Below are positions 15,524-58,166 of a stretch of 64,000 nt of DNA, one piece after another. The DNA comes from Isoetes taiwanensis. Lineage: Eukaryota; Streptophyta; Lycopodiopsida; Isoetales; Isoetaceae. The number at the start of each line of letters is the position of its first letter. The first letter of the stretch is position 1. The notes beneath the pieces are model-generated. The model worked only from the letters and a program-made list of their open reading frames with translations, made no database searches and was not told the DNA's origin. The position numbers and the translations under genes are program-made. The stretch is taken from assembly GCA_021234155.1 (NCBI GenBank), contig JAJEKV010000130.1, forward strand, positions 708,787 to 772,786. The letters are read 5' to 3'.

Positions 15524-15732
15524 TGAATTTAGCTGAGCGAATTCTTACAGATATCAGCGTCTGGCGAAAATACTTTCAGCGTCTGTGATCTGGCCGGGTT
15601 TTCAGCGTCTGAGTTTTTTTTTTCGCGTTCGCGTCACAGGCGGTTTTCCTTGTTTAAGCGTCTGCGAAAAATTTCGGCGATGCAGAATGGCAAAGGCAAG
15701 CCCAACACAGTCACGGAATCTCAACCGAAATT

Positions 15733-16659
15733 TTGTTAAAGTGGGGCGGAGATGAATTGTTAATTCATGTCACAGATCTTATTAATAAGGCAGTATGTCA
15801 TGGTCTACCAAGAGAATGGAAGGAAAACAAGATTGTACCAGTTCATAAGTCTGGCAGCAAGAAGGTGAGCACTAACTACAGAACAATTATGGTAGGAAAC
15901 ATCTTTGCAAAGCTTGTAGGTGGACTGTTGGAACGAAAAATCAGCATATGGGCAGATGAAAAGGGTGTGAGAGTAAAATGCCAAGCAGGATTCCAGAGAG
16001 GCCATTGCACCTCAGATCATGCTTTAATACTGAGAGTGATGATAGAGAGACCTAAAGGTCCGAGAAAGATGGTATGCTTGGCATTTGTAGATTTTTCTAA
16101 GGCTTTCGATACAATTCCCCGTGACAAATTAGGTACAGGGATGGAACAAGTTGGGGTTCCTATCACGTTAAGAGGTGTGGTAGCAAGACTATATGAAGAG
16201 GTGATAGCTAAGATTTCAGTGGAGATGAAATCAGAGATTAGGAGCACCATCGGGATCAAGCAAGGCTGCCCGCTTTCACCTACATTATTTGGCCTTTACA
16301 TAGATGAATTGGAGACATGGCTCCGAGATAGAAGCATAGAAGGCACCAGGTTGGGAGAATTTGTGGTACAGCTGCTTCTTTATGCAGATGATGTGGTACT
16401 TATGTCAGATAATCCGACTGGTCTACAATCTCACCTGGATGCATTAGCATCTTTCTGTGAAGAGAAACAAATGAAAGTCAACTTGGAGAAGACAAAAGTC
16501 ATGATATTTGGCACAGTGCAACGTCCAGATTTCTGGTATAAAGGGGAGACGGTGCAGGTTGTGGAAGTTTATAAATACTTGGGGCTGGAATTCAATTCAA
16601 ATTACAGATGGGCGGAGTGCATTAAGAAGAGGATGGCAGGTGGAAAAGCAGCGTTGTAA
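15733..16659 (+). pseudogene. LINE reverse transcriptase domain
   Basis: This is a 308-codon open stretch of the LINE's ORF2 covering the RT palm and thumb. The catalytic aspartates are visible in FVDFSKAFDT and YADD, and the RT motif order is normal. The apparent start is a TTG, so the stretch is only the open part of a longer ORF2 whose 5' part is missing. The frame stops at TAA 16657-16659, and coding resumes in the same frame. Confidence 0.8.
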
Positions 16660-20246: not shown

Positions 20247-20308
20247 ATGTACAAGTTCATTCATCTCACCTTCTTCATTGCTTGCTTCTTGTTTTGCTTT
20301 CCTGCATC

Positions 20309-20871
20309 ATGGCTGCAAAGGTGCTCACCCCAGGATGCATTGCCATCAAGGGCGACAATAAAATGTATCTCACACTTGACATGCATGGCCCTACGCCATA
20401 TCTCACTTTCAGTGCAGAAAAGAAGACGTGTCTTACAGTCCACCATCTCCTTTACAATTCCACGGATGGCACAGTTGTGATTCAGGCAGCAAATGGCCGC
20501 TTCTGGCGGCGTAATTCAGAAGCCTTCATCGTTGCCGATATGGAGCAATATCCTGGCTTGGCAAATCTAGATGCGCACTTTAAGGTAGTGGACCTCAACT
20601 TAGGAACTCATGGCTTTCAGTCTGCACTAGACAATCTGTTCCTTAATAGATACAACCAAAGTGGGTATTTGTATACAAAGCCTTGGAGAAGAAGGCCAAC
20701 AAGTCGACAGTGGTGGAGGTGAGCGATGCTAAGGATTACGCTCTATTCCTCCCCCCTTATCTGTCATTCATGGGGAGCAACAATCAGTTGATGCAGCTCT
20801 ACAACGAACGAGATCATGCATGGCAGAAATTCAATGGTGGAAGCAGCCCATTGCACTATATCTATAACTGG
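20309..20871 (+). pseudogene. amaranthin-like lectin (agglutinin domain), broken or with an intron
   Basis: Amaranthin-type lectins are carbohydrate-binding proteins built of repeated agglutinin domains. From ATG 20309 the frame reads MAAKVLTPGCIAIKGDNK, then TDGTVVIQAANGRFWRRNS and ANLDAHFKVVDL, matching the order of an agglutinin beta-trefoil (KGxNxxYL; NGxFWR; FxVxxL). A second domain appears to start in a different frame (LPPYLSFMGSNNQLMQLYNE, about 20750-20810). The coding sense therefore spans two overlapping frames near 20680-20720, which may be decay or a base-calling error. GGTAAGT at 20871 is a good splice-donor match. An upstream ATG at 20247 gives a signal-peptide-like start in yet another frame. 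No downstream exons are recognised before the hairpin at 21046. Confidence 0.6.
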
Positions 20872-21045
20872 GTAAGTCGGTCATATTTTGCACTTGGTTT
20901 TGGAGTTAATGATAGTATTACGAGTCAGGAGGCAGGAATAGCCTACAAGAAACTCTGCGCTTGGAGAGTGGCAAGGAATGGCAATGGTAGGATGCTTATG
21001 TTGAATGCACCAGAGCCACGTGTGTTGGAGGGGGGTCCCGAGTAT

Positions 21046-21151
21046 GGGGAATGTCACTTTAGGTGACATTCCCACGTGGAAACGTTGCCGACGCGCGTTA
21101 GCGTGGAGGCAACCTTGACACGTGGGAATTTCACCTAAAGTGACATTACCC
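21046..21151. repeat. near-perfect inverted repeat, MITE-like hairpin
   Basis: A 29-base left arm at 21050-21078 (AATGTCACTTTAGGTGACAT, then TCCCACGTG) pairs with the right arm 21119-21147, with one mismatch. Pairing extends a few bases further out, with one more mismatch. The ~40-base loop has a second small pairing (CGTTGCC with GGCAACC). The left arm itself contains a small palindrome, GTCACTTTAGGTGAC. The element ends the open frame downstream of the lectin fragment. Confidence 0.8.
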
Positions 21152-21559: not shown

Positions 21560-23567
21560 CAGCTGCTAAAAGATGCTTTGGGAGAGGCCACTCATGGAAA
21601 ACCTCGGGCGCTACCACCTTCCCCTGCAACAGATGGTTCGATGATGAGTGTCGGGAGATCAAACGCCAAATCCGACAAGTCACTAATCCCACCTCTCCCC
21701 CACAGGCCATCAGTCAATACCGCTCCTTCCTCAAGAACAAGAAAGCCAGAACCTCGCAGAGCACCAGCAACAGATGTTCGGTCTCTTGGATCGGCATCCC
21801 AAAACATTCTTGAGAAAGGTATTGAGCAAGGCTTTATAGCCCACAGGGAACATCACCTCGCAGAGATAGGTTCTGTACGTACGAAATTATTTTTCCAGAT
21901 GTATAAAGTTAAAAAATACGTATTTTTAGGTTAAATACGTATTTTTAACCTACCGGCCGGAAAAAAAAAATTCGCGTAAGCGAAACCTTACGCAAAAATA
22001 AAAAAAATAAATAAAAAAAAATAAATAATAATAATATTTTCGCGTAAGCGAAACCTTGATTTAAACTACGCCGCGTTCGCATAATGGCCGAAGGTTGCTT
22101 CTGTGAAAATTAAAAAAAAAAAATAAAAAAATCGATTTTTTTTTTCTTCTTAAAGCCGAAACCTGGTTTAAACTTACGCTACCCTAAACCGGTTTCGGCT
22201 TATGCAAAAAGCAGGTTCCGGCGTAAGCATGATACCCACCCTCGGCATGGCACAATTCAATGTGGCACACCAGGCGAAGGTCAGTGCAATTAAAAAAAAA
22301 GCGTTTTAAAAAGCGTAAGCTGAGGAGGTTTAAACTTACGCGAAAATATTAAAAAAAAATAAAAAATTACGTTTCGGCGTGCGAAAACCTTCACAGCTTC
22401 TGTGCGAAACATTTCCGGCAATAGGAAATGTTTTGCCGTATTTTGGCGTATTATACTTCAAATTAGTGCGGTATTATTGAATAATGCGTATCGAGTATAA
22501 AGCATTATCTGATTATTGAACCTATCCACCTCGGGCAATGGGTCAAGTACTTTGCTTGACTTTTACGATCCGCTCGGGGGCCGGGCACCAGTACCTCGAC
22601 AGATAGGCCTAGCTCTGGTCATCACGGAGGGGGATGTCATCATGGGCCTACAATGCCTAGCTAATGGGAAAGTAGCAGATTTAGATGTCATGCAGACGGA
22701 ATTCCTGAAACGGACTGGGCCTCCATTGGTGCTTGCCTCATGGCACTATTCAAGCATTGCAAGAAGGCTTCCCTCCGTAGTGGATCACTACTAGAGTTAT
22801 GCCCATATACAAGGCAGGGGGACCCCCAATGCCCAGCCAACTATTGCACTATTATGGTCAGCTCTCTCTTTGCAAAATTGTTGACTGGCATCCTTGAGTA
22901 GCGGCTGACAATATGATGACCAGCTAGAAGATCAGCTTTCTGAGCATGGAGGTGCGGGCGCCCATCTCATGCATCACACAATCCGGCAACTCATATATGC
23001 TGACGATGTCAACCTTCTAGCCTATTCTCCAGAGGGCATGCAACGTCACCTGGATGCTCTTGATACTTTTTGCCGATTCACTGGCATGTGCGTTAACTTG
23101 GCCAAAACTAGGGTGCTGTTAGTTTCGTCATCCAGTCAGCCAAGACTTCCCTCATTCACTTACAAGGGACAAGATGTAGAGGTGGCTCCGACCAACAAGT
23201 ACTTGGGGATCGAGTCCTCCACTACAACCCACTGGGATGCTGTCATCAGATTGTGGGTCACGACGGGTTGGAAAGCACTATATGCCATGCAAAACAACAG
23301 CCACAAGGCAGAGTTGTATGCCTTGGGCCACCAGTCACACTTGTTTAGGGCCTTGGTCGAACCCGTCCTCTCTCTTGGGGTCCGATGATATCCCTCACCA
23401 ACTGGAATGATCTCGAGAAGGTGCAGAAAGCCTTCTTGGCACGAGCCCTTGGGGTAAAGTCCACAGTTCCATACCAGATCCTACTCCAGGAAACAGGTTT
23501 TCTACCCCTTCAAAGGGCTGCATTGGAATGCTATATTATTTACTTTCAGAAGGTGGTCGCTCTCTGA
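21560..23567 (+). mobile_element. LINE C fragment (linker and RT), plus strand
   Basis: At 21570-21830 one frame reads CNRWFDDECREIKRQIRQ, the typical linker between LINE endonuclease and RT. At about 22610-22800 the frame contains GLQCLANGKVADLDVMQTEF, matching the start of RT. 22969-23388 has QLIYADDVNLLAYSPEGMQ (motif C) and KYLGIESSTTTHWDA. 23385-23567 continues with the thumb (KVQKAFLARALGVKSTVPYQ, ETGFLPLQRAALECY). The frames are broken. The interval 21850-22510 is a foreign insert. The sequence stops abruptly near 23567 against LINE A in the opposite orientation. Confidence 0.75.
21850..22510. repeat. insert with GCGTAAG/CTTACGC motif cluster and A-rich runs
   Basis: This stretch separates two parts of LINE C. 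It starts with a palindromic AATACGTATTTTTAGGTTAA-like segment. It then carries at least eight GCGTAAGC or CTTACGC motifs in both orientations, at about 21974, 21988, 22041, 22173, 22219, 22311 and 22332 and nearby. They are spaced by A- or AAT-rich runs and paired with AAACCGG or GGTTTAAAC pieces. The mirrored motifs could fold into several hairpins. No coding potential. Confidence 0.6.
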
Positions 23568-24090: not shown

Positions 24091-24896
24091 TCAGCAACTC
24101 TTCCTGTATATTCCTTCTATTTCAAAGACCAAGGGAACGTGATCTGATTCTATCACCTTGTTTCCAAGTTGGCAATTATATACTCCATCTATCTCTGATG
24201 TTAGCAAGTAATCAAGCGTGCTTTCTCCCATATGGTTTAAGCATGTCGATCTGCTAGTGTTGCAGAATTTGTTGACGCCATTCAGAATTTTGAGTCCACA
24301 TACTGTGCCAAATTCCATTAAATAGTCCCCCATGACATTCTTAACACTATCAACTGACTCTCTTTCGTATTCCATTGCAATTTCCTCTTCTAAAAGTACA
24401 TCTCCATCGTTCACATATGAGACTGTTTGTTTTCCTTTTGTTCTGGCATTAAAATCCCCAACCACAGTTACATCGCCTTGTTCTTTAAATTGTAGAACAT
24501 CCTTTGTGAGCTCGTGTAGAGATTTTTCGGAATCAAACTCTCTATTATGATACACAGACATAGAAAGCGGAGCAAAATAGCATGTCATGCTAAGTACCAC
24601 ATTCTGTATTTCGTTTTAATCTGGAGCCATATGTATTGGTTGGCAGCATGTTTCTTTTTCACTGATATGTCTCGCTGGAGATGGTGCTTTACATAAACTG
24701 CTAGACCTCCAAATCCCCTGCCTACTCCTGGCTCTTTCCAATTCCAGCAAGAATCTAGAAGTTGAAATCCATGTATTTGCAGATGTTTACTCTGGTGTTC
24801 CCAAGTTTCAGAGAGGAGCAGCAGATCAACAGTATTCCATGTGTCCTGCAGTGCATCTACTTTTGCTTGATTGAGATCATGGATGTTCCATGCCAT
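24091..24896 (-). pseudogene. LINE A endonuclease (EEP/AP-type) domain
   Basis: ORF2 starts at the ATG ending at 24896 (MAWNIHDLNQAKVDALQ). Endonuclease motifs appear in the right order: VDLLLLSETWEHQSK (metal-binding Glu), VTVVGDFNARTKGKQ (catalytic Asp and Asn), STLDYLLTSEIDGVY, and SDHVPLVFEI (catalytic Asp-His). One frame change lies between about 24585 and 24610. The enzyme nicks target DNA to prime reverse transcription. Confidence 0.75.
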
Positions 24897-24915
24897 GATC
24901 TTTAGGGTCCGTTCC

Positions 24916-25562
24916 CTATTTCCTTCTCTTGTTTGTGACTACAGTTTTCCTGCTTCTATCTAGAAATGCCATGAAACCTTCATCTCTAACAGTTCTAACC
25001 TTTGCCCATTCAACCTTTCTGATCTCATGTTGTGCCGGTGTTAGATCCTGGTCTAACCAAATCTTATGCCCTTTTAGAGCGGCTCTATTGTGCATGACCC
25101 GATCTCTAGCCTCGGTGCTTCGAAATGTAACCAAGATGGGTCTGTATCCCCCTGGTTTACCAATGCGTCTGCTCTGAACTACTTGGGGTTCATGCAGTTT
25201 CAAAGTGTCCTTGAAAAAGTCTTTCACAATTTAGTTGATATCTTCACTTTCATGTTCAGCAATTCCAAATATTTTCAGATTCCTTGCTCTTGCCTGAATC
25301 TGTTGGTTTTCTGCCATAATTCGTTCTTGATTTTTTGCCATCAGAGCTGGAAGTCTTGATTCCAAACTAGTCATGGTTTCTGCTATCAAAACTGGGATTG
25401 TTGATTCTAGAGTCGAATCCTGCAACATTGGCTTTGGTTTTGTGATCAGAGCTTGGAGTTCCAAGTTTTGGGCTGCTAAGTCACGATTATGTTCACTCAA
25501 GGCTTTATTTTGTGCAATCACAACTTCTACTAATTTCTTCAGTTCTCTAATTTCTTGCATAC
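24916..25562 (-). pseudogene. LINE A ORF1: coiled coil plus RRM-type RNA-binding region
   Basis: The N-terminal part starts MQEIRELKKLVEVVIAQ with heptad-like leucines (LSEHNRDLAAQNLELQAL), a coiled coil for oligomer formation. The next part, GYRPILVTFRSTEARDRVM, then KGHKIWLDQDLTPAQHEIR, matches the RRM and C-terminal domain of L1/L2-type ORF1 proteins, which bind and chaperone the element's RNA. There is a stop near the junction at about 25228-25230. Most plant L1 elements instead carry a DUF4283 plus zinc-knuckle ORF1, as LINE B does, so this ORF1 type is notable here. The ATG lies next to the LTR insertion point. Confidence 0.65.
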
Positions 25563-26699
25563 TGTGACGTTCCACATATTTATACGCATATTTAAGTATA
25601 AATACATGACACTTCATTATGGATAATTAATGGCACATTAATTATTCATAAGCTAGGGTTATCTATGTTAATAATTAAATTATAAAGGTGGAAACCTAAC
25701 CCAAAACCCTAATTCGAATTTAGGGCTTATCCTAATATTAAAAAGGGCTAAAATACCAAATTAGCTCATTATTGACATGCCACCTGGCCCAAATCGATTG
25801 GGCAAGGTAGGGTTTCCATTTTGGACACCCAAATTAGGGCTTTTGTGCCCCAATTCGAATTGGGAGCAATTGGGGATGGAGGAGGAGGAGCAAAGCCGAG
25901 GGCACCCTCAAACAAATCGAGATGGAGCCATCCCAAGCCCGGGTCGACTCCGGTTAGTCTATAGCTTAGTTTGTGTTATCAGTAGGGTAGCCCATGTTGG
26001 GCACTTGTTGTGTGTATTTCTTCTATTTCTCTGTGTTCTCTATGCTTTACCTATAGGAACTAACCCTTGATTGTAAAGGTAAGTTCTCTTTATATTCTGA
26101 TTCTGGGTTTGCTCTTAAAGGATGGATTGATAGTTCTTTGCATAGTATTACTCTGGAAATGGGGGAATTAAGGGGGGTAGAGACCTCTGAGCCATGATAG
26201 TAGGATGCTCCTAGGTAGATCCTCAGACTCAAGGGGGTTCACTCAATGGTCACGCACATTACCAACCGAAAGTGAACTTTAGGGTTTTTATTGCCTTGGT
26301 CGAGGTATACGATTGAGGAGCTCATCTGGTAGGAAGGAGAGATTAAAGTAGATGATCGATTTGGGGAGCTGATCCATTTGACGGAAAAAGGTACAAAGTC
26401 GGAAAGGGATTATATAATTTGGCACAAAAGGTACACAAAAGGTACAAAAGTCAGAAAGGGATTATATAATTTGGCACAAAGGGTCTTCACAAAAGGTACA
26501 AAGTCGGAAAGGGATTATATATTTTGGCACAATCAATCGTAAATCTACGGATAGGGTCTATATTGTATGTTAGTTCGAAAAACCGTATGGTATGGGTTTT
26601 TCTACTCCAAAAAGCCGTATACAGGGGTCTTTCTATGACCCCTCGAACGCAGATGCCATCTGTCCATATATAGAGGTGCACCCCCGGGTCCTGTACTTC

Positions 26700-27749: not shown

Positions 27750-30700
27750 TATCTAATTGGAAGTGCATTTTGATCCAGAAAATGGAGAGAGGTTTAGATG
27801 CGTAGAGAACCCTATTTCTGGATTTCCAGATATTCCACAAGGCAGTGTGCACAAGAGTGTTTGCAAAGATGTCACCTTGCTGAAGGAATTGAATAATATT
27901 ACTGAAATTTCTATTTTTCAAAAATGATCCAAGCTTATTTAGGAACCAAGTCCAGAAAGGTCTCAGTTTAGGACAAAGGAAAATATGCTGTAGATCCTCT
28001 TCCTGAAGACATCCAGAGTTACATAATGGAATTACATTGCATCTTCTAGATAGAGAAACCAAGTTTGTCAGACTTTTATGGGCAATCAACCAAATGAAGA
28101 AGCAAATTTTAGGAGTACAAAATGACTTCCAAACATTTTCAAAAAAGAGACTGAACTTGAGCTTGATCTAATGACCATTTCGCAAAGCCCTTTAGTGGAG
28201 TATCGGTCCACATTAATCAAGGTATAAATTTCTTTGACCACTGTAAGCATGTTTTCCATTTATAGAGCAACCAAGAGATGTCTTGTAGTCACCAAAATTA
28301 TTGAAGGAAGACAAGATATTCTTAAAATGCAAAAAAGCTTCTTATCACTAGAGGTACCCCTTAGAGCAGGTCTTGAGAGAAGTCCAAGTTATGAAGGTAT
28401 TATTACCTCTGTAAAGATCTTTTATAGCGATTGATCCCTTTGTTAGACCATTTTACGTAAAATCTTAGGATGCTTAATGGCCATTGTATTAGAAAACCGA
28501 TCAAAGAAGATTGGTGACCAAAAGATCGGTGTTCATAGTGGCTTGAAGAACATTATCTCTCGAAGCACGGGATGAATTTTATTCGGGCCATTATTAGATT
28601 TCTCATCAAAGGAGAAGTATTAGGGGCGGGGTGAATGTCCACAAAAGCAGATTGAGGAAGGGAATGCTTAATAGAGGAATGTCGGTGGGGTGGGAGCAAT
28701 TAAGCCGATTTTCGATGATGGCGAGATGTGAGAATTATTTCCCATGATAGTTCTCCAAATATATTTCCTGCCGGAGAACAAGCACGAAGATGAAGATTTT
28801 TACAGCCAAGACCCCCAAATTTTTAGGCACGGAGGCGAGAATTCCAATTAACCAAATGTGAACCATTCGGATGAAATTTCTAATAACCTTTTCAGCTCGA
28901 GTAAATTGATTTAGGAGCAATTAGAAGCGAGAAAGAAAAGTATACATGAGATGAAGCTAAAACTGAGTTTGCAATGATTGTCCTCCACAAAAGATAGGCA
29001 ATTCCTATAATTATTGGTTTCCTTTTGATTTTTTCTTGAGAATAGGATCCCAAAGGCCCTTTAAGTTTGGACTTAGAGAGAGGCATACCTAATAATTTGG
29101 AAGCTTGATTAGGATTGAGAACTTGAATATCACAAATATAAGGCGAGTGACATCACCTATGATCTTACTTTTATCAATATTGAGATGACACACGAAGTCT
29201 TGCAGAGAGAACTCCTTGAGAAGATCTAGAAAGGTATTGATATTATTGGGATTGGAATCCAAGAATACAAAAAGTGTCATCGACATCTTGAGAAATTGTA
29301 AGCATATCCAAGTTATTGGGAAGAGATAAACCAGGTTAGGTCGAGAATTTTGCATATGGAGAACACATCTCGTGAGCATTTCAGCAATAATGAGAAAAAG
29401 GTAAAAGGGGCCAATGGGCAACCTTGTCTAACACCTCTTGCCAAGGGAAGAAATTTGAAGGAGATCCATTGATCGAGGGACAGAGAGTTGGACATAGAAT
29501 TTAGATCATGAATAAGAGATATGAGCTTAGTGTGAAAACCCATTTTTTTTGAGAGCAATGTCAATGAAATCCCAACTAACAGTATCAAAAGCTCTCTTGA
29601 AATCTAATTTGGAGAGAATGCAAGATTGATGGGAGATCCTATTCCAATGCAAGTCTTCCATAGCACTAATATAATTATCTAGGATAAATGTTTTGGAAGA
29701 AATGCAGATTGGTTGATACTTATATTTTACGGAGAAAAGCACGGATTCTTCTTGCAATAATTTTGTACGAGTTTGTAAGAAGAATTGGTGAGAGAGATTG
29801 GTCTCCATTCATTGAAGGAAGTAGGATTATCCACCTTTGGCACAAGAGTAATGAAACCAGCAGAAATGGAGGTGCAAATGCTCGAGAATTCCAAAATCCA
29901 TGTACAAAGCCAATAATATCGGGATTTCATAATGTCCCGAATTGAGAATAGAATTGCGGGGAAACCATCGGGACCGGGGAGATTTGTTCTTGGAGAAGCT
30001 CAAAAGGGTTTTAAAATTTCCTCCTCCCCGAGGCTGCAGGTTAGAGATATCCATAGGATCAATAGTATTTGGAAGAATGGAGTCCAACCTAGCCATTGTA
30101 AATTTATCCACAGTTAATAATATCGATTGGCGGTGAGATCATTGCCCCTGAAAAGCATAGAGTAACTGTCATAAAAATACTTCTTGATCTCATGACTCGA
30201 ACTGAGGGAAGTGCCAGAATCATTAATTACATGACTTATGGAGTTCTTGAGAAGTCTGGACTTTGCAACTCGGAAGAAAAATTTAGAGCTCCCATGGTCA
30301 ATCTCACTATTGTATTTGATTTTACATTTTATAGCAGAGAATCTAGCCTCCTTTTCCTCTATAGATTTAAGATGCCTCTCAATTAATTCCTCTGCTATGT
30401 GAAGACTAGAATTATAAGGGTCAATTTGCAGCAAGGATCTCACATCTTTCATCTTATGGAGAAGATTTTCTTTTTCTTGAATTCTGGTCTTATTTTTGTT
30501 TTTTGCCCAAACCTTTATCCACTCTTTAGCCTTTTTTATTTTGGAATAGAAATTTTTCATGGAAGTAGTAGGAAGCATAGAGTCAAGGGACCTGTAGAAA
30601 TTAGAGAACTCTTCATGAAAAGAGTTGTTTTGAAGGAGAGAACAATTAAATTTGAAGGGGATATTTCTCTCCCTTGGGGGATTAAGCAAATGCTTGGTAC

Positions 30701-31397
30701 AGAGAAATTGGGGCTGATGGTGCAGATTGAAGTGCCTTCATCACTTATGACATAGCAATTATCCCAAAAATCAGAGTTTGGATTTGAGACATAAAATCTA
30801 TCCAAGGCACAGAACACTCTGTCAAGATTTTTTTGTTTATTAGACCAAGTATAAACAGAGGTAGAAGAAGGAATGTGAATGAGAGATGAATCAGAGATAA
30901 GATTATTCCATCTCCCCCTTTCCGCCACATGAGACATATTGATTTTATTTCCCAATTTCATATCCCAAGTAGGGGTATTATTAAAGTCTCCTGCTAGAAT
31001 CCAGTCAACAGAGGAATTTTGAGTGATCCAGGAGCTTATATTAGGCCAAAGATTTTCCCTCTCCTTTGGGACGGTGGAGGCATACACATTTATGACACCA
31101 AAGGAAGTGTTGTTTCTGAGAGAAAGTGAATGGTGCCACATTTTAGAGACTATTGCGGTAGGAGACATGATGCGAGGTTTTCAGGATGATGGCCATTCCA
31201 CCTTTAGTACCATTAGCTTCAATCCAGTTGAAGAGGAGCACAGGTAAATCCGGTCTCCCAAATTAGAACTTCAAACTTAGGGAGTTTGAGCTCTGAAGTA
31301 TTATAATGTCGACATCATACTGTCTAATTTGAGCAATGGCCCTCCTTCTTTTCAAAGGTCCTTTAATACCTCTTAGATTCCAACTAAGAATCTTCAT
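27580..31397 (-). pseudogene. LINE B ORF2: endonuclease, reverse transcriptase, zinc-knuckle region
   Basis: The start is MKILSWNLRGIKGPLKRRR at 31397, the canonical plant L1 ORF2 start. The endonuclease includes VDWILAGDFNNTPTWDMK and TSVYTWSNKQKNLDRV. The RT segment includes AGFITLVPKVDNPTSFNEWR and PISLTNSSYKLVQ (about 29800-29900), SKLDFKRAFDTVSWDFI (about 29600) and LARGVRQGCPLAPF (about 29400-29450). The C-terminal zf-RVT region reads CNSGCLQEEDLQHIFLCP (about 27990-28030) and WNIWKSRNRVLY. Frames are interrupted mainly between 28440 and 30100. The length, about 1270 codons, is typical for plant L1 ORF2. Confidence 0.8.
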
Positions 31398-47551: not shown

Positions 47552-47624
47552 TACTTGCGGCTGGCGGCAGAGCAGTAAAGAAGAAGTATTTCAGATGAGA
47601 AAGCTTGGTTTATGCATTGAAGTC

Positions 47625-50219
47625 ATGAAGAGTAAATACTTGATCTGGGTGTTTCTATGCTATTTAACCAAGGCCCATCTTCTAACAATCAATTACACTC
47701 TTAATGAAGATAATCTGGCATGGAGTGGGCATCATCTTTACCCAGTTTTGGATAGCAGTTCTAACGTCATCCAAAATAGGTCTTTCTGCTTGGCTTTCTA
47801 TCCATTCCGAAAGGCATTTGGAGTATTTGCGAGAATCCCAGAGCCCGTTATGTTATGGAGTTCTGGTGATAAGACCGTAAGCTGGGGTTCCACATTTGTT
47901 CTCGATTCAACTGGAAGCCTTGTACTGCGAGATGATTCAAATCAAGAAGTTTGGTCTGCCGGACCGGGTATAGAAAGGTGGGAGATTGAAAGGAATGGTA
48001 ATTTGGTGTTGTATGATGGGAACGAGACTGCAATATGGCAAAGCATAGATACTTCATCAGATGTTGTAGTTTTGGGTCAGAACTTTACCAAGCTTTCCAA
48101 GGGAAGGTCTACTGTTGTGTTCGAGCATGGTAATTTAAAGGTGACGCAAGGCCATAAAACGTTATGCACACAATATACTGGGGGTTTGAAAATTGGGCTT
48201 AGATTGCGCAATTACACTGCTGAAACTGGCCCTGATGGTCCCCTTAGCTACTATTACGATGTGGATTTTACCAGTTTCAACTCCAGCGGTATGCCAACCT
48301 CCGACGTTTTTCTAACGTCTCCCACATACAAATCCAGCACCAATGACTTTACCGTGTTCATACGACTCCAGGATCGCGGATCCCTCAAGCTTTATACTCT
48401 TCTAGATGGCACCTGGATAACGGAATCCCTCTGTTGTACCGGTAACATGTCTTTTAACAATTGCCGGTCCCTCCTGAGCGCAGGAGAAATATCTTTAATT
48501 GGCACCGTGATTGCCTTTCTCTTGATCATGATTTATTCAGAAGTAAGATCCTGCTTTTTCAAAAGTTCTAGCCATCACATTTTGCTTCACATACTTTTGC
48601 TTGCCTCTGTTGCTCTCATATTATTCTCGTCTTTATTAGCAGTTATTGGTCTTTTTCGACTCAAGGATAATGCAGAGTATTTTGCCATCATCTCTATAGA
48701 CATGACCATTCTGCAAGTATCCGTTAGGGGTGTCCTCCAATTTCTTGTTAGAAATTCTCCTCCCAAAAGGATACTCCTGTTTATATTGATTGCTCTACAC
48801 TTCATAGTAATCTTCCTTGGATGCTCTGCATCTGTTTGCTGGCGTTCTGGAAGCTGGTATACAATGCCGATGGCCTACTTCTACATTCTTTATTTTGGAG
48901 TCTTAAATCTTTATCCTCTTACAATCTTTAATACTATAATCTTAGTTGCAGCAAGGCTTCCCCGTTGTAGCAGACGTAATTGTAACAGATGCTGCTTTTC
49001 AATAGGCCTAATCTTTGCTAATATAATCCTTGCTGCTGCTACCACAGTCGGCAGTGTTGGCTTTCCTCTTTCATACGTCTATATCATGCAGTCCTTAAAT
49101 TTGATTCTCATAGCAATCTCAATATGGGCCTGCTTTGCGCATAATGTCATATCATTCCAACCTGTTATATCAAAGATACATATGATGCAGAAAAGAGCAC
49201 ATGTTTGGCTTCTTTCACGTCTCATGGGCAAGCCCGAACCTCCAGGCGAGGACGATATAATAATATCTTTGTCCAGCTACAGCTATCCAGAGATGGAGGT
49301 GGTGACAGATCACTTTGGAAAACAAATTGGCAAAGGTGGTTTCGGCGGAGTGTACGAGGGTGTGCTTTTGGATGGAAGGAAAATTGCAGTCAAGAAACTG
49401 GAAAGCAGCAGCCAGGGTAGACAGGAATTTAAATCAGAAATCGAAACTCTAGGCAAATTGCACCATGTTAACCTAGTCCAGTTATTGGGTTTTTGTGCAG
49501 AAGGCACTAATAAGCTTCTCATATATGAGTTCATGTCTAATGGCTCCTTGGACAAATGGATATTCAATGGTGGTTACCTTCTAGATTGGCCTCAGAGAAT
49601 GAAGATTATTCTGGGAACTGCACAAGGCTTAGCATATCTGCATCAAGAATGCAACCCAAGAATACTTCATTTAGATGTGAAGCCTCAGAACATCCTTCTA
49701 GATGAATCATTTACGCCCAAAGTTGCAGATTTTGGACTGAGCAAGTTGATGCCAGCAGATGAAACTTCCTTGATACTCACTAGAATGATGGGGACCTTTG
49801 GATATTTAGCACCTGAATGGGTGAATGGCAGTGTCTCAGAGAAAAATGATGTTTACAGCTTTGGAATTGTGGTACTCGAGGTTGTTAGTGGTCATAGAAG
49901 TTATTCAAGTATGGTGATGAGTGAAGAAATAAGCTTTTTGAATTGGGCAACTCAAAGATATGAGGACGGAACTCTCCTCGATTCTAAATTGGCTAAAGAA
50001 GATTGTGATGCAATGCAATTAAAAAGGGTACTAGATGTGGCATTTTGTTGTGCTTGCCAAGATGCTAACATGCGTCCTTCCATGGGCATGGTTGTAAAGA
50101 TGCTAGAGGGTAATAATGATTACACACTGCCTCTAGAACAAGAGTCATATCCCATAAATCAGCAATCTTCCCTCTACTCCATTGGGGAAGAATGGTCTCA
50201 AGAAGTTCCTTTGAGATAG
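47625..50219 (+). CDS. bulb-type lectin receptor kinase with seven predicted membrane segments
   Basis: Intronless, 864 codons from ATG 47625; ATG 47595 in the same frame is an alternative. I chose 47625 because it gives a standard signal peptide (MKSKYLIWVFLCYLTKA) and a purine at -3. Residues 27-155 are a bulb-lectin domain (LDSTGSLVLRD; ERNGNLVLYDGNETAIWQS). Residues 156-287 resemble the SD2-5-type ectodomain end (IRLQDRGSLKLYTLLDGTW), without EGF or PAN. Seven N-glycosylation sequons lie at residues 23-276. Hydrophobic segments at about 288-305, 318-344, 351-375, 382-405, 413-442, 456-485 and 489-509 replace the usual single one; inside loops are basic (RSCFFK, RNSPPKR, RLPRCSRRNCNR). The kinase domain is at 560-832: GKGGFGG 569-575, Lys590, Glu605, HLDVKPQN with Asp684 (non-RD), DFG 702-704, GTFGYLAPEW. 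All catalytic residues are present. The odd number of passes puts the kinase in the cytosol. Confidence 0.9.
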   Translation: MKSKYLIWVFLCYLTKAHLLTINYTLNEDNLAWSGHHLYPVLDSSSNVIQNRSFCLAFYPFRKAFGVFARIPEPVMLWSSGDKTVSWGSTFVLDSTGSLVLRDDSNQEVWSAGPGIERWEIERNGNLVLYDGNETAIWQSIDTSSDVVVLGQNFTKLSKGRSTVVFEHGNLKVTQGHKTLCTQYTGGLKIGLRLRNYTAETGPDGPLSYYYDVDFTSFNSSGMPTSDVFLTSPTYKSSTNDFTVFIRLQDRGSLKLYTLLDGTWITESLCCTGNMSFNNCRSLLSAGEISLIGTVIAFLLIMIYSEVRSCFFKSSSHHILLHILLLASVALILFSSLLAVIGLFRLKDNAEYFAIISIDMTILQVSVRGVLQFLVRNSPPKRILLFILIALHFIVIFLGCSASVCWRSGSWYTMPMAYFYILYFGVLNLYPLTIFNTIILVAARLPRCSRRNCNRCCFSIGLIFANIILAAATTVGSVGFPLSYVYIMQSLNLILIAISIWACFAHNVISFQPVISKIHMMQKRAHVWLLSRLMGKPEPPGEDDIIISLSSYSYPEMEVVTDHFGKQIGKGGFGGVYEGVLLDGRKIAVKKLESSSQGRQEFKSEIETLGKLHHVNLVQLLGFCAEGTNKLLIYEFMSNGSLDKWIFNGGYLLDWPQRMKIILGTAQGLAYLHQECNPRILHLDVKPQNILLDESFTPKVADFGLSKLMPADETSLILTRMMGTFGYLAPEWVNGSVSEKNDVYSFGIVVLEVVSGHRSYSSMVMSEEISFLNWATQRYEDGTLLDSKLAKEDCDAMQLKRVLDVAFCCACQDANMRPSMGMVVKMLEGNNDYTLPLEQESYPINQQSSLYSIGEEWSQEVPLR

Positions 50220-57180: not shown

Positions 57181-58166
57181 CATTCAGAAGCTGTGGCCGG
57201 GGAAGAGCATGATTGGACTTGTGCAGAAATGCCTGCCGCCATAGCTGACCGCAGAGTGGAAATCACTGGTCCGGTGGAACGAAAAATGATCATCAATGCC
57301 TTGAATTCTGGTGCCAAAGTCTTCATGGTAAGAATTTGATTTAATTCCTTCATATGTTTTTATTCAGATTTGTCTTTGTTAATTGTGCGGACAAGTTCTA
57401 GCTCTGTCACACTCCTTACTTCTTTTTTGATTCATAGCTTTAGCTACTGTGCATGATTTTTTTACAGCAAAGTATGGCAAATTACAGATGGGCTGTAGGA
57501 TCTTATAAGTGTTTGGACATTTATTTGCAGGCAGATTTTGAGGATTCTTTGTGCCCCACATGGGATAACATAGTGAAAGGGCAGATCAATCTATGTGATG
57601 CAGTAAACGGCACAATAGAATATGAAGATAAAGCTAGAAACAGGACCTACAGACTAAACGATAAAATGGCAGTGCTTTTTGTGAGGCCAAGGGGGTGGCA
57701 TCTCCAAGAAGCTCATATTGAAGTGGATGGAGAGCCTATGACAGGGGCATTGTTGGATTTTGGTCTATATTTCTTCCACAATCACCAGACATTTAGATCT
57801 AAGCATGGTGGTTCAGGGCCATATTTTTATCTACCTAAAATGCAGCATTCTAGAGAAGCAGCTCTATGGAATGCTGTATTTTGTTGGGCTCAAAACGAAC
57901 TAGGTGTTCCCATAGGTAGCATCAAAGGGACTGTTTTGATAGAAACCTTGCCTGCAGTGTTCCAGATGCATGAGATTTTATTTGAGCTTAAGGATCATTC
58001 TGCTGGACTGAATTGTGGCAGATGGGATTATATTTTCAGCTTTATCAAAACTGTGTGAGCCCATCGTGATCGTCTTCTTCCTGATCGTGTTCAGGTTGGC
58101 ATGACCCAGCATTTCTTGAAGAGCTATACTGAGTTGCTCATTAAAACTTGCCAAGATCGGGCGGTC
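57181..58166 (+). pseudogene. malate synthase gene fragment, two exons
   Basis: Malate synthase condenses glyoxylate and acetyl-CoA in the glyoxysomal glyoxylate cycle. Exon one (about 57181-57327) encodes [20 protein letters not shown] and LNSGAKVFM, then GTAAGAATTT donor. Exon two starts at 57531 after [113 protein letters not shown]. The conserved catalytic-region Arg and Glu segments are kept. An in-frame TGA at 58056-58058 interrupts; the frame then continues HRDRLLPDRVQVGMTQHF up to CQDRA, where similarity ends near 58160. The N-terminal and C-terminal thirds are missing. The 202-base intron is retained, so this is a DNA-level fragment, not a retrocopy. Confidence 0.9.

Follow-up and report, generated by a model that had tools for sequence, protein, structure and literature searches.

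A stretch of 64,000 nucleotides from the quillwort Isoetes taiwanensis, a lycophyte and thus an early-branching vascular plant (assembly GCA_021234155.1, contig JAJEKV010000130.1, positions 708,787 to 772,786; hereafter, the window) carries a gene whose predicted product, P0001, joins an outer bulb-type lectin domain to an inner Ser/Thr kinase domain through a membrane region of about seven passes. A reading made earlier from the sequence alone (the sequence-only reading) had proposed such a lectin-seven-transmembrane-kinase (lectin-7TM-kinase) receptor in a single continuous frame. The comparisons reported here confirm this predicted arrangement: 864 codons are open, Pfam and hydropathy place the three parts along one frame, and, decisively, paralogues in the same genome retain the arrangement. 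I. taiwanensis probably has a lineage-specific set of lectin receptor kinases with a multi-pass membrane region, which we judge to be the best explanation of the whole.

We first describe the two domains that tie the gene to a known receptor class. In P0001, Pfam matched the kinase family at residues 564-825 (E 3e-46) and B_lectin at residues 90-155 (E 1e-6, 29.7 bits, where the Pfam cut-off is 32.4 bits). Both families were also matched in all eight further family members compared, B_lectin at E 3e-9 to 3e-4 and above the cut-off in three of them; the kinase of one member (L021) is truncated. The ectodomain retrieved G-type receptor-like kinases (RLKs) by phmmer (E 1.7e-13 within a set of 120), W138, S140 and Q152 are invariant in the alignment with SD2-5 receptors, and the best kinase matches include Selaginella SD2-5 proteins (52-53%). 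The bulb-type lectin domain and the SD2-type cytoplasmic kinase are those of the SD2 class of G-type lectin receptor-like kinases (LecRLKs), whose single pass is not found here: hydropathy gives seven segments in P0001 and six to eight across 21 family loci. No PAN or EGF module was matched by Pfam up to E 10 in P0001, and no PAN module up to E 0.01 in the eight further members. L027 and L028, two receptors of this genome with the ordinary plan, showed lectin, S-locus, PAN and kinase matches in that order. The kinase carries an HLD motif and is non-RD, as had been noted from the sequence; the accompanying idea that this hints specially at immunity was not sustained, because HCD or HLD is found in the aligned SD2-5 relatives and a non-RD kinase is thus normal in this class. 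A full-length AlphaFold2 model built with 44 SD2-5 relatives gave a good kinase and a fair lectin core (predicted local distance difference test, pLDDT, 76-84 by block over residues 91-140). As for the ends of the frame, its length is 841-879 aa in L002, L003, L004 and L006, and an alternative in-frame ATG at 47595 could lengthen the window protein by 10 residues. A similar extension was seen in the paralogue L006, and the true start may be 47595.

Topology was examined by hydropathy, which was the sole method for this purpose (window of 19, Kyte-Doolittle (KD) value of at least 1.4). P0001 has exactly seven hydrophobic segments, at residues 289-307, 323-341, 353-371, 383-401, 424-442, 457-475 and 493-511 (TM1 to TM7), instead of the single segment that had been named in advance as the outcome that would speak against a seven-pass receptor. 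Seven N-glycosylation sequons lie ahead of the first segment, and two more lie within the kinase. The flanks of the segments hold 14 Lys and Arg residues on the predicted inner side and four on the outer side, a bias matched by two of the 70 possible choices of four from eight flanks, and these residues are more numerous inside than outside in 20 of the 21 family loci. The placement of the lectin outside and the kinase inside, also part of the sequence-only reading, is therefore borne out by the sequons, by the inner-flank charge and by the outer loops, which evolve fastest (see below). Within the bundle, columns conserved at 95% or more are L363, L388, P431, N436, T437, I438, L440, L445, P446, N466 and H506. 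The most conserved block lies in TM5 (P431, N436-I438, L440 and L445-P446), and N466 and H506 are retained as well.

The evidence that carries the family comes from its own genome. A search of the 1.66-Gb assembly (1,658,258,908 bases in 1110 contigs) returned 56 matches, the window gene included. Nineteen span residue 60 or earlier to residue 700 or later (17 stop-free), 25 cover at least 150 bundle residues (20 stop-free), and 13 are stop-free from residue 60 or earlier to residue 825 or later; in addition, L020, recovered in pieces, has a frame of 883 aa. The nearest long copies are 90, 80, 80 and 75% identical to the window protein, and the remainder range from 47 down to 40%. We retrieved 28 loci and aligned 21 of them over the frame, including the partial L005 and L025 (the latter with one stop). 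Outside this alignment are L019, L022, L023, L024 and L026, which are broken or partial and have bundle matches, and the two receptors of ordinary order, L027 and L028. A profile of 19 bundles matched seven loci not used in its building (L005, L019, L020, L022, L023, L024 and L026, the first three being near copies of rows that were used) and matched neither L027 nor L028. In the kinase tree, the family formed one clade with support of 100/100, comprising 23 rows: every aligned locus except L018, whose match was too short (20 of 21), together with the partial L023, L024 and L026. Its neighbors are two Selaginella SD2-5 kinases, a grouping that is weakly supported (74/81), and the L027 and L028 kinases fall outside it. 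A tree of 90 rows made before the paralogues were included had placed P0001 basally to the SD2-5 rows, at the end of a long branch.

Three copies lie within 13 kb on contig C943, three lie on C801, and several pieces lie on C1079. Family copies, such as L004 and L007 on C943 and those on C801, C1079 and C650, were seen clustered beside broken fragments. Such clustered copies and fragments form a birth-and-death pattern that is common among immune receptor genes. Separately, a repeat present in L031, in L032 and at two places in L034 carries a TM7 piece of the family along with downstream sequence common to the copies; it seems that the repeat captured a gene fragment and multiplied it.

We next compared rates of evolution among the parts. 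The ratio of nonsynonymous to synonymous substitution rates (dN/dS) was obtained from four disjoint close pairs and from a second set of four more distant pairs. In the close pairs, dN/dS was 0.17 for the kinase, 0.35 for the juxtamembrane segment (residues 512-555), 0.56 for the lectin, 0.78 (0.43-1.60) for the inner loops, 1.02 for the second ectodomain part and 1.44 (0.98-2.18) for the outer loops; in the more distant pairs, it was 0.07 for the kinase, 0.33 for the helices, 0.41 for the inner loops and 0.80 for the outer loops. Nonsynonymous change per site was higher in the outer than in the inner loops (Fisher p 1e-12), and the ratio of nonsynonymous to synonymous changes was higher in the outer loops than in the helices (p 0.004). 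In length, outer loop 3 ranges over 16-41 residues, inner loop 1 over 14-29 and inner loop 3 over 12-14. The fast-evolving loops are those that hydropathy places outside, which provides independent support for the topology. A family of immune receptors at the cell surface is suggested by the fast outside, the nearly fixed kinase and the occurrence of duplicates in clusters, and the fast outer loops together with the variable loop 3 are best read as those of a receptor that probably faces a ligand and is probably immune.

Several observations weigh against the multi-pass family as the main explanation. The number of segments at one threshold was seven in 14 of the 21 loci, eight in two (L011 and L014) and six in five (L013, L016, L017, L018 and L020), so that "seven" is a majority reading, and in L016 Lys and Arg are equally numerous inside and outside. 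The lectin score is below the Pfam cut-off in P0001 and in five of the eight further members, and four of the 19 long matches (L007, L008, L018 and L021) end within the kinase domain. Between close paralogues, dN/dS of the helices was 0.73 (0.50-1.13), which is not below 1 by itself, and the pair L001-L002 gave 2.06 over residues 283-511. The excess of dN over dS in the outer loops was not significant (Fisher p 0.08; interval 0.98-2.18); because codons were counted as independent and the outer-loop alignment is uncertain, positive selection is to be taken as a hint and not as a result. Finally, AlphaFold2 gave a mean pLDDT of 54 for residues 262-560 modelled as a single sequence without bundle relatives, and the full-length model had block values of 23-52 over residues 281-480 and 66-86 over residues 481-510.

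Among the alternatives, the one that survives best takes the bundle for the domain of a transporter or channel, which would make the protein a kinase-coupled transporter, or sees in its passes only an anchor for oligomerisation. Similarity to a receptor family was no more found than similarity to a transporter, and the conserved Pro and Asn in TM5 and the Asp and Arg inside TM3 of P0001 could suit either role. However, strong change in the outer loops and ectodomain beside a fixed kinase fits recognition better, and we regard this alternative as unlikely.

A second alternative is that the bundle is a retained intron or exitron, so that the mature product would be a conventional RLK with one pass. 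Splicing at 48543-49190, where a GT-AG pair stands in frame, would remove 648 nt with TM2 to TM7 and leave TM1 directly ahead of the basic juxtamembrane segment; since the spliced product would be a normal single-pass receptor, we treated this alternative as a serious one. It is also in its favor that a T-rich intron would translate into hydrophobic residues and that dN/dS of the helices is not clearly below 1 among close paralogues. However, the pair itself is ordinary, with a score of 4.7 by a rough weight table, as compared with 4.0 for the best in-frame pair of the ectodomain, 7.7 for that of the kinase and 1.8-9.3 for those of 25 other windows, and the donor GT is present in 10 of the 21 loci (missing in 11), with both ends present in nine. 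Chance is likewise a poor explanation of the open frame: 266 stop-free codons have a probability of 6e-8 in sequence of the same composition, and the five other frames contain 8-22 stops across the region. The 648 nt show coding-like periodicity (chi2 23.9, against 18.9 for the ectodomain and 22.9 for the kinase), a value reached by six of 1000 simulated open frames and by six of the 185 overlapping pieces of 648 nt taken from elsewhere in the window; as many hydrophobic segments (six) occurred in four of 1000 simulated open frames. Across the 21 loci, the helix cores have a mean KD of 1.43-2.19 and one to four charged residues of about 100, whereas simulated neutral change at 60% difference gave a KD of 0.38, 13.7 charged residues and about eight stops. 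Frames and hydrophobic cores thus persist where the nucleotide sequences differ by as much as 57-63%, and the inner loops evolve in another way than the outer ones. The hydrophobic helices over 21 loci and the basic inner loops in 20 of them make a retained intron or a chance frame unlikely; homologues in which the region is plainly an intron, the other outcome named in advance as fatal, did not appear, as the paralogues keep both frame and cores. Overall, we consider an exitron improbable as an account of the gene, and splicing may be optional within the close clade.

The third alternative, that these are degenerate receptors whose constraint is relaxed outside the kinase, draws on the dN/dS values near 1 for the second ectodomain part and the helices between close copies and on the stops or kinase-internal ends in several loci. 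It is very improbable in view of the 13 matches that are stop-free over nearly the whole protein, the long frame of L020, the retained hydrophobic cores and the low ratios of helices and kinase in the four more distant pairs.

Searches for relatives of the bundle, by which its origin might be traced, gave the following. The bundle region (residues 280-545) had no match at E of 10 or below against 5.8 billion proteins (about 475-1512 aa; 4620 candidates). The whole protein had 3194 matches, driven by the kinase, and none of the best 120 of them has seven hydrophobic segments; they have at most five, which are scattered. A two-row profile of the bundle and Arabidopsis RGS1 had 191 matches (about 173-549 aa), of which the best 120 are RGS1-type, as expected from the second row, and only four of these 120 aligned to the bundle row by BLASTP. 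Note that these protein-database searches require shared five-residue words, so that distant relatives can be missed. Nothing relevant was found in PDB by sequence, also with the 19-row family profile (A3), and Foldseek with the single-sequence model of residues 262-560 gave a best E of 1.2, which is meaningless. Pfam on the 19 bundles gave a best E of 0.075 with no family in more than one member, and no similarity of the bundle to a G-protein-coupled receptor (GPCR) family was found in Pfam. Viral and prokaryote contigs gave 1 and 35 pattern matches, respectively, none of which was confirmed. The rows of the alignment VIA-align cover residues 546-832 only and hence are uninformative on the bundle. 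In the own genome, one bundle query with 50 candidates scored gave 34 matches, which are family members, fragments and short weak ones, and no free-standing donor gene among them. In nine stretches around weak matches or broken copies (L029-L037), L030 and L035 contain parts of a lectin or kinase, L036 and L037 are disrupted members of the family, and L029 and L033 have no profile match.

The weakest alternative, fusion of a sugar-regulated domain of the plant 7TM-RGS1 type into the receptor, is scarcely credible. In its favor, Arabidopsis RGS1 aligns end to end at 21% identity, has a similar stretch after TM7 and scores above most shuffles in semi-global alignment (reached by 26 of 500 full shuffles and by 12 of 200 in another test). 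In local alignment, however, 143 of 500 shuffles did as well as the real sequence. A profile built from 120 plant RGS1 proteins placed the region at rank 237 of 596 when bias was corrected and at rank 109 of 997 when it was not, the rest being shuffles and a reversal; the family profile scores 14.8 against the RGS1 profile, where 40 shuffled or reversed controls score 10.1-20.8; and Pfam finds no RGS domain in the window protein. At this sensitivity, an RGS1 origin was accordingly rejected by pairwise, profile and profile-profile comparison. Two side observations were made on RGS1 proteins: one Gossypium sequence among the matches to the RGS1 profile (P0228) is named "PLK4 kinase" in its source, yet only an RGS domain is recorded for it, and several RGS1 proteins have a precomputed match to 7tm_3 (PF00003).

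When P0001 is set against 44 SD2-5 relatives, the match runs through the lectin and the ectodomain part that follows it to about C280 and becomes firm again from the juxtamembrane segment onward. Between these, the Cys-rich block of the relatives is aligned with TM1-TM5, with C280, C310 and C400 matched, and their single pass with TM7. We read the Cys match as forced, because the stretch is hydrophobic helix and neither a PAN nor an EGF model fits it, and hence place the bundle where the relatives have their PAN-type module. In a lineage-specific family of multi-pass receptors, the PAN-type module of an SD2-5-type G-type lectin receptor kinase would have been replaced by a hydrophobic bundle once in the family's ancestry, and the original single pass would have been either lost or kept as TM7, with which it aligns; the direction of change is proposed because the ordinary form is widespread. 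A variable recognition surface facing the wall would be formed by the three outer loops together with the lectin and the second ectodomain part; its ligand is probably a glycan or peptide that comes from the wall or from microbes. The bundle would anchor the receptor and might relay a ligand-induced change to the kinase by helix movement or oligomer rearrangement, and the conserved inner kinase would then phosphorylate the usual RLK partners, with RLK-type phosphorylation in immunity as the likely output. Coupling of the bundle to G proteins is possible. More far-reaching, and about as likely as not, is the proposal that these are true seven-pass receptor kinases of land plants, in which an Isoetes G-type lectin kinase gained an orphan bundle and gave rise to a dozen or more intact genes, with loops diversifying under selection, a fixed kinase and GPCR-like immune sensing.

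The features of the gene are collected in Table 1.

Table 1. Predicted features of the lectin-7TM-kinase gene (positions in the window).
Feature	Position	Strand	Remarks
Whole coding frame	47625..50219	+	864 aa, intron-free; 864 codons open
Putative signal peptide (approximate, residues 1-18)	47625..47678	+	Hydrophobic N-terminus, by eye
Bulb-type (G-type) lectin domain, residues 90-155	47892..48089	+	PF01453 and SD2-5 alignment
Second ectodomain part, residues 161-279	48105..48461	+	Fast evolving; no PAN-type module found after it
Seven-pass region, residues 289-511	48489..49157	+	Hydropathy, paralogue conservation, inner-loop charge
Helices TM1-TM7	48489-48545, 48591-48647, 48681-48737, 48771-48827, 48894-48950, 48993-49049, 49101-49157	+	
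Outer loop 1, residues 342-352	48648..48680	+	
Outer loop 2, residues 402-423	48828..48893	+	
Outer loop 3, residues 476-492	49050..49100	+	16-41 residues across 21 family loci
Juxtamembrane segment, predicted helix after TM7 (residues 512-533)	49158..49313	+	Low-confidence AlphaFold2 models
Ser/Thr kinase domain, SD2-5 class, non-RD (HLD)	49314..50099	+	K590, E605, D684 and D702 kept

Elsewhere in the window, on the plus strand, an exon of a malate synthase gene lies at 57444-58055 (Pfam MS_TIM-barrel, E 1e-57) and a reverse transcriptase open reading frame at 15658-16656 (Pfam RVT_1, E 6e-29). Further frames resembling non-LTR retroelements were seen by eye at about 22900-23400, 24100-25600 and 29300-31200. 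Two overlapping plus-strand frames at 20303-21063 resemble one protein, possibly spliced or frameshifted, and have no Pfam match.

Plants sense the outside mainly through single-pass receptor kinases, whose kinase domains belong to the tyrosine kinase-like (TKL) group, and are not known to have GPCRs of the animal kind. The present family shares with the SD2 class of G-type LecRLKs (SD2-5) the bulb-type lectin ectodomain, the non-RD SD2-5-class kinase and the juxtamembrane join, and differs from it in the PAN-type module, which was not found, and in having about seven passes instead of one. The ordinary receptors L027 and L028 of the same genome, in contrast, lack the bundle and stand outside the family clade. 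The family would make it testable whether a multi-helix bundle can switch an attached kinase, and it brings with it a membrane domain of orphan type; should the pattern of the outer loops be borne out, immune receptors would have been added in a lineage about whose immunity little is known. Among the matches listed in the open-licence text of PubMed Central (PMC), which excludes preprints and most subscription papers, there was no report of a plant lectin-7TM-kinase.

LecRLKs are described as lectin, transmembrane and kinase parts, and Populus members are predicted with two or three transmembrane segments (PMC7758398). The claim of the sequence-only reading that the gene departs from the usual LecRLK plan stands, but its premise of a single pass in such kinases goes too far. 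In cucumber, eight LecRLK proteins are listed with "more than two" predicted segments (PMC7564967). More than one predicted pass is thus common to these proteins and the present family, but the passages of the two papers describe no conserved bundle. Plant 7TM-RGS1 is a seven-pass protein with a C-terminal regulatory domain (PMC3386157, PMC5575782); the present protein has a kinase in place of the RGS domain, and no sequence relationship was found between them by the comparisons above. There is also a likeness in architecture, and in architecture only, to the GPCR-TKL proteins of other kingdoms, as far as extracts of the sources describe them. In oomycete GPCR-bigrams, a seven-pass domain is followed by a TKL-type kinase (PMC6033456), and such 7TM-kinase fusions were known from oomycetes and amoebozoans, being "not found in other eukaryotes", and later from choanoflagellates and early-branching animals (PMC12716839). 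The oomycete GPCR-bigrams and the choanoflagellate GPCR-TKL/K proteins share with the present family a seven-pass domain N-terminal to a TKL kinase. They differ in that those extracts mention no lectin ectodomain, whereas here a lectin precedes the bundle and the kinase is plainly of the plant RLK type. A paralogue family of this kind in a vascular plant would represent an independent origin of the 7TM-kinase design, with well-studied kinase partners.

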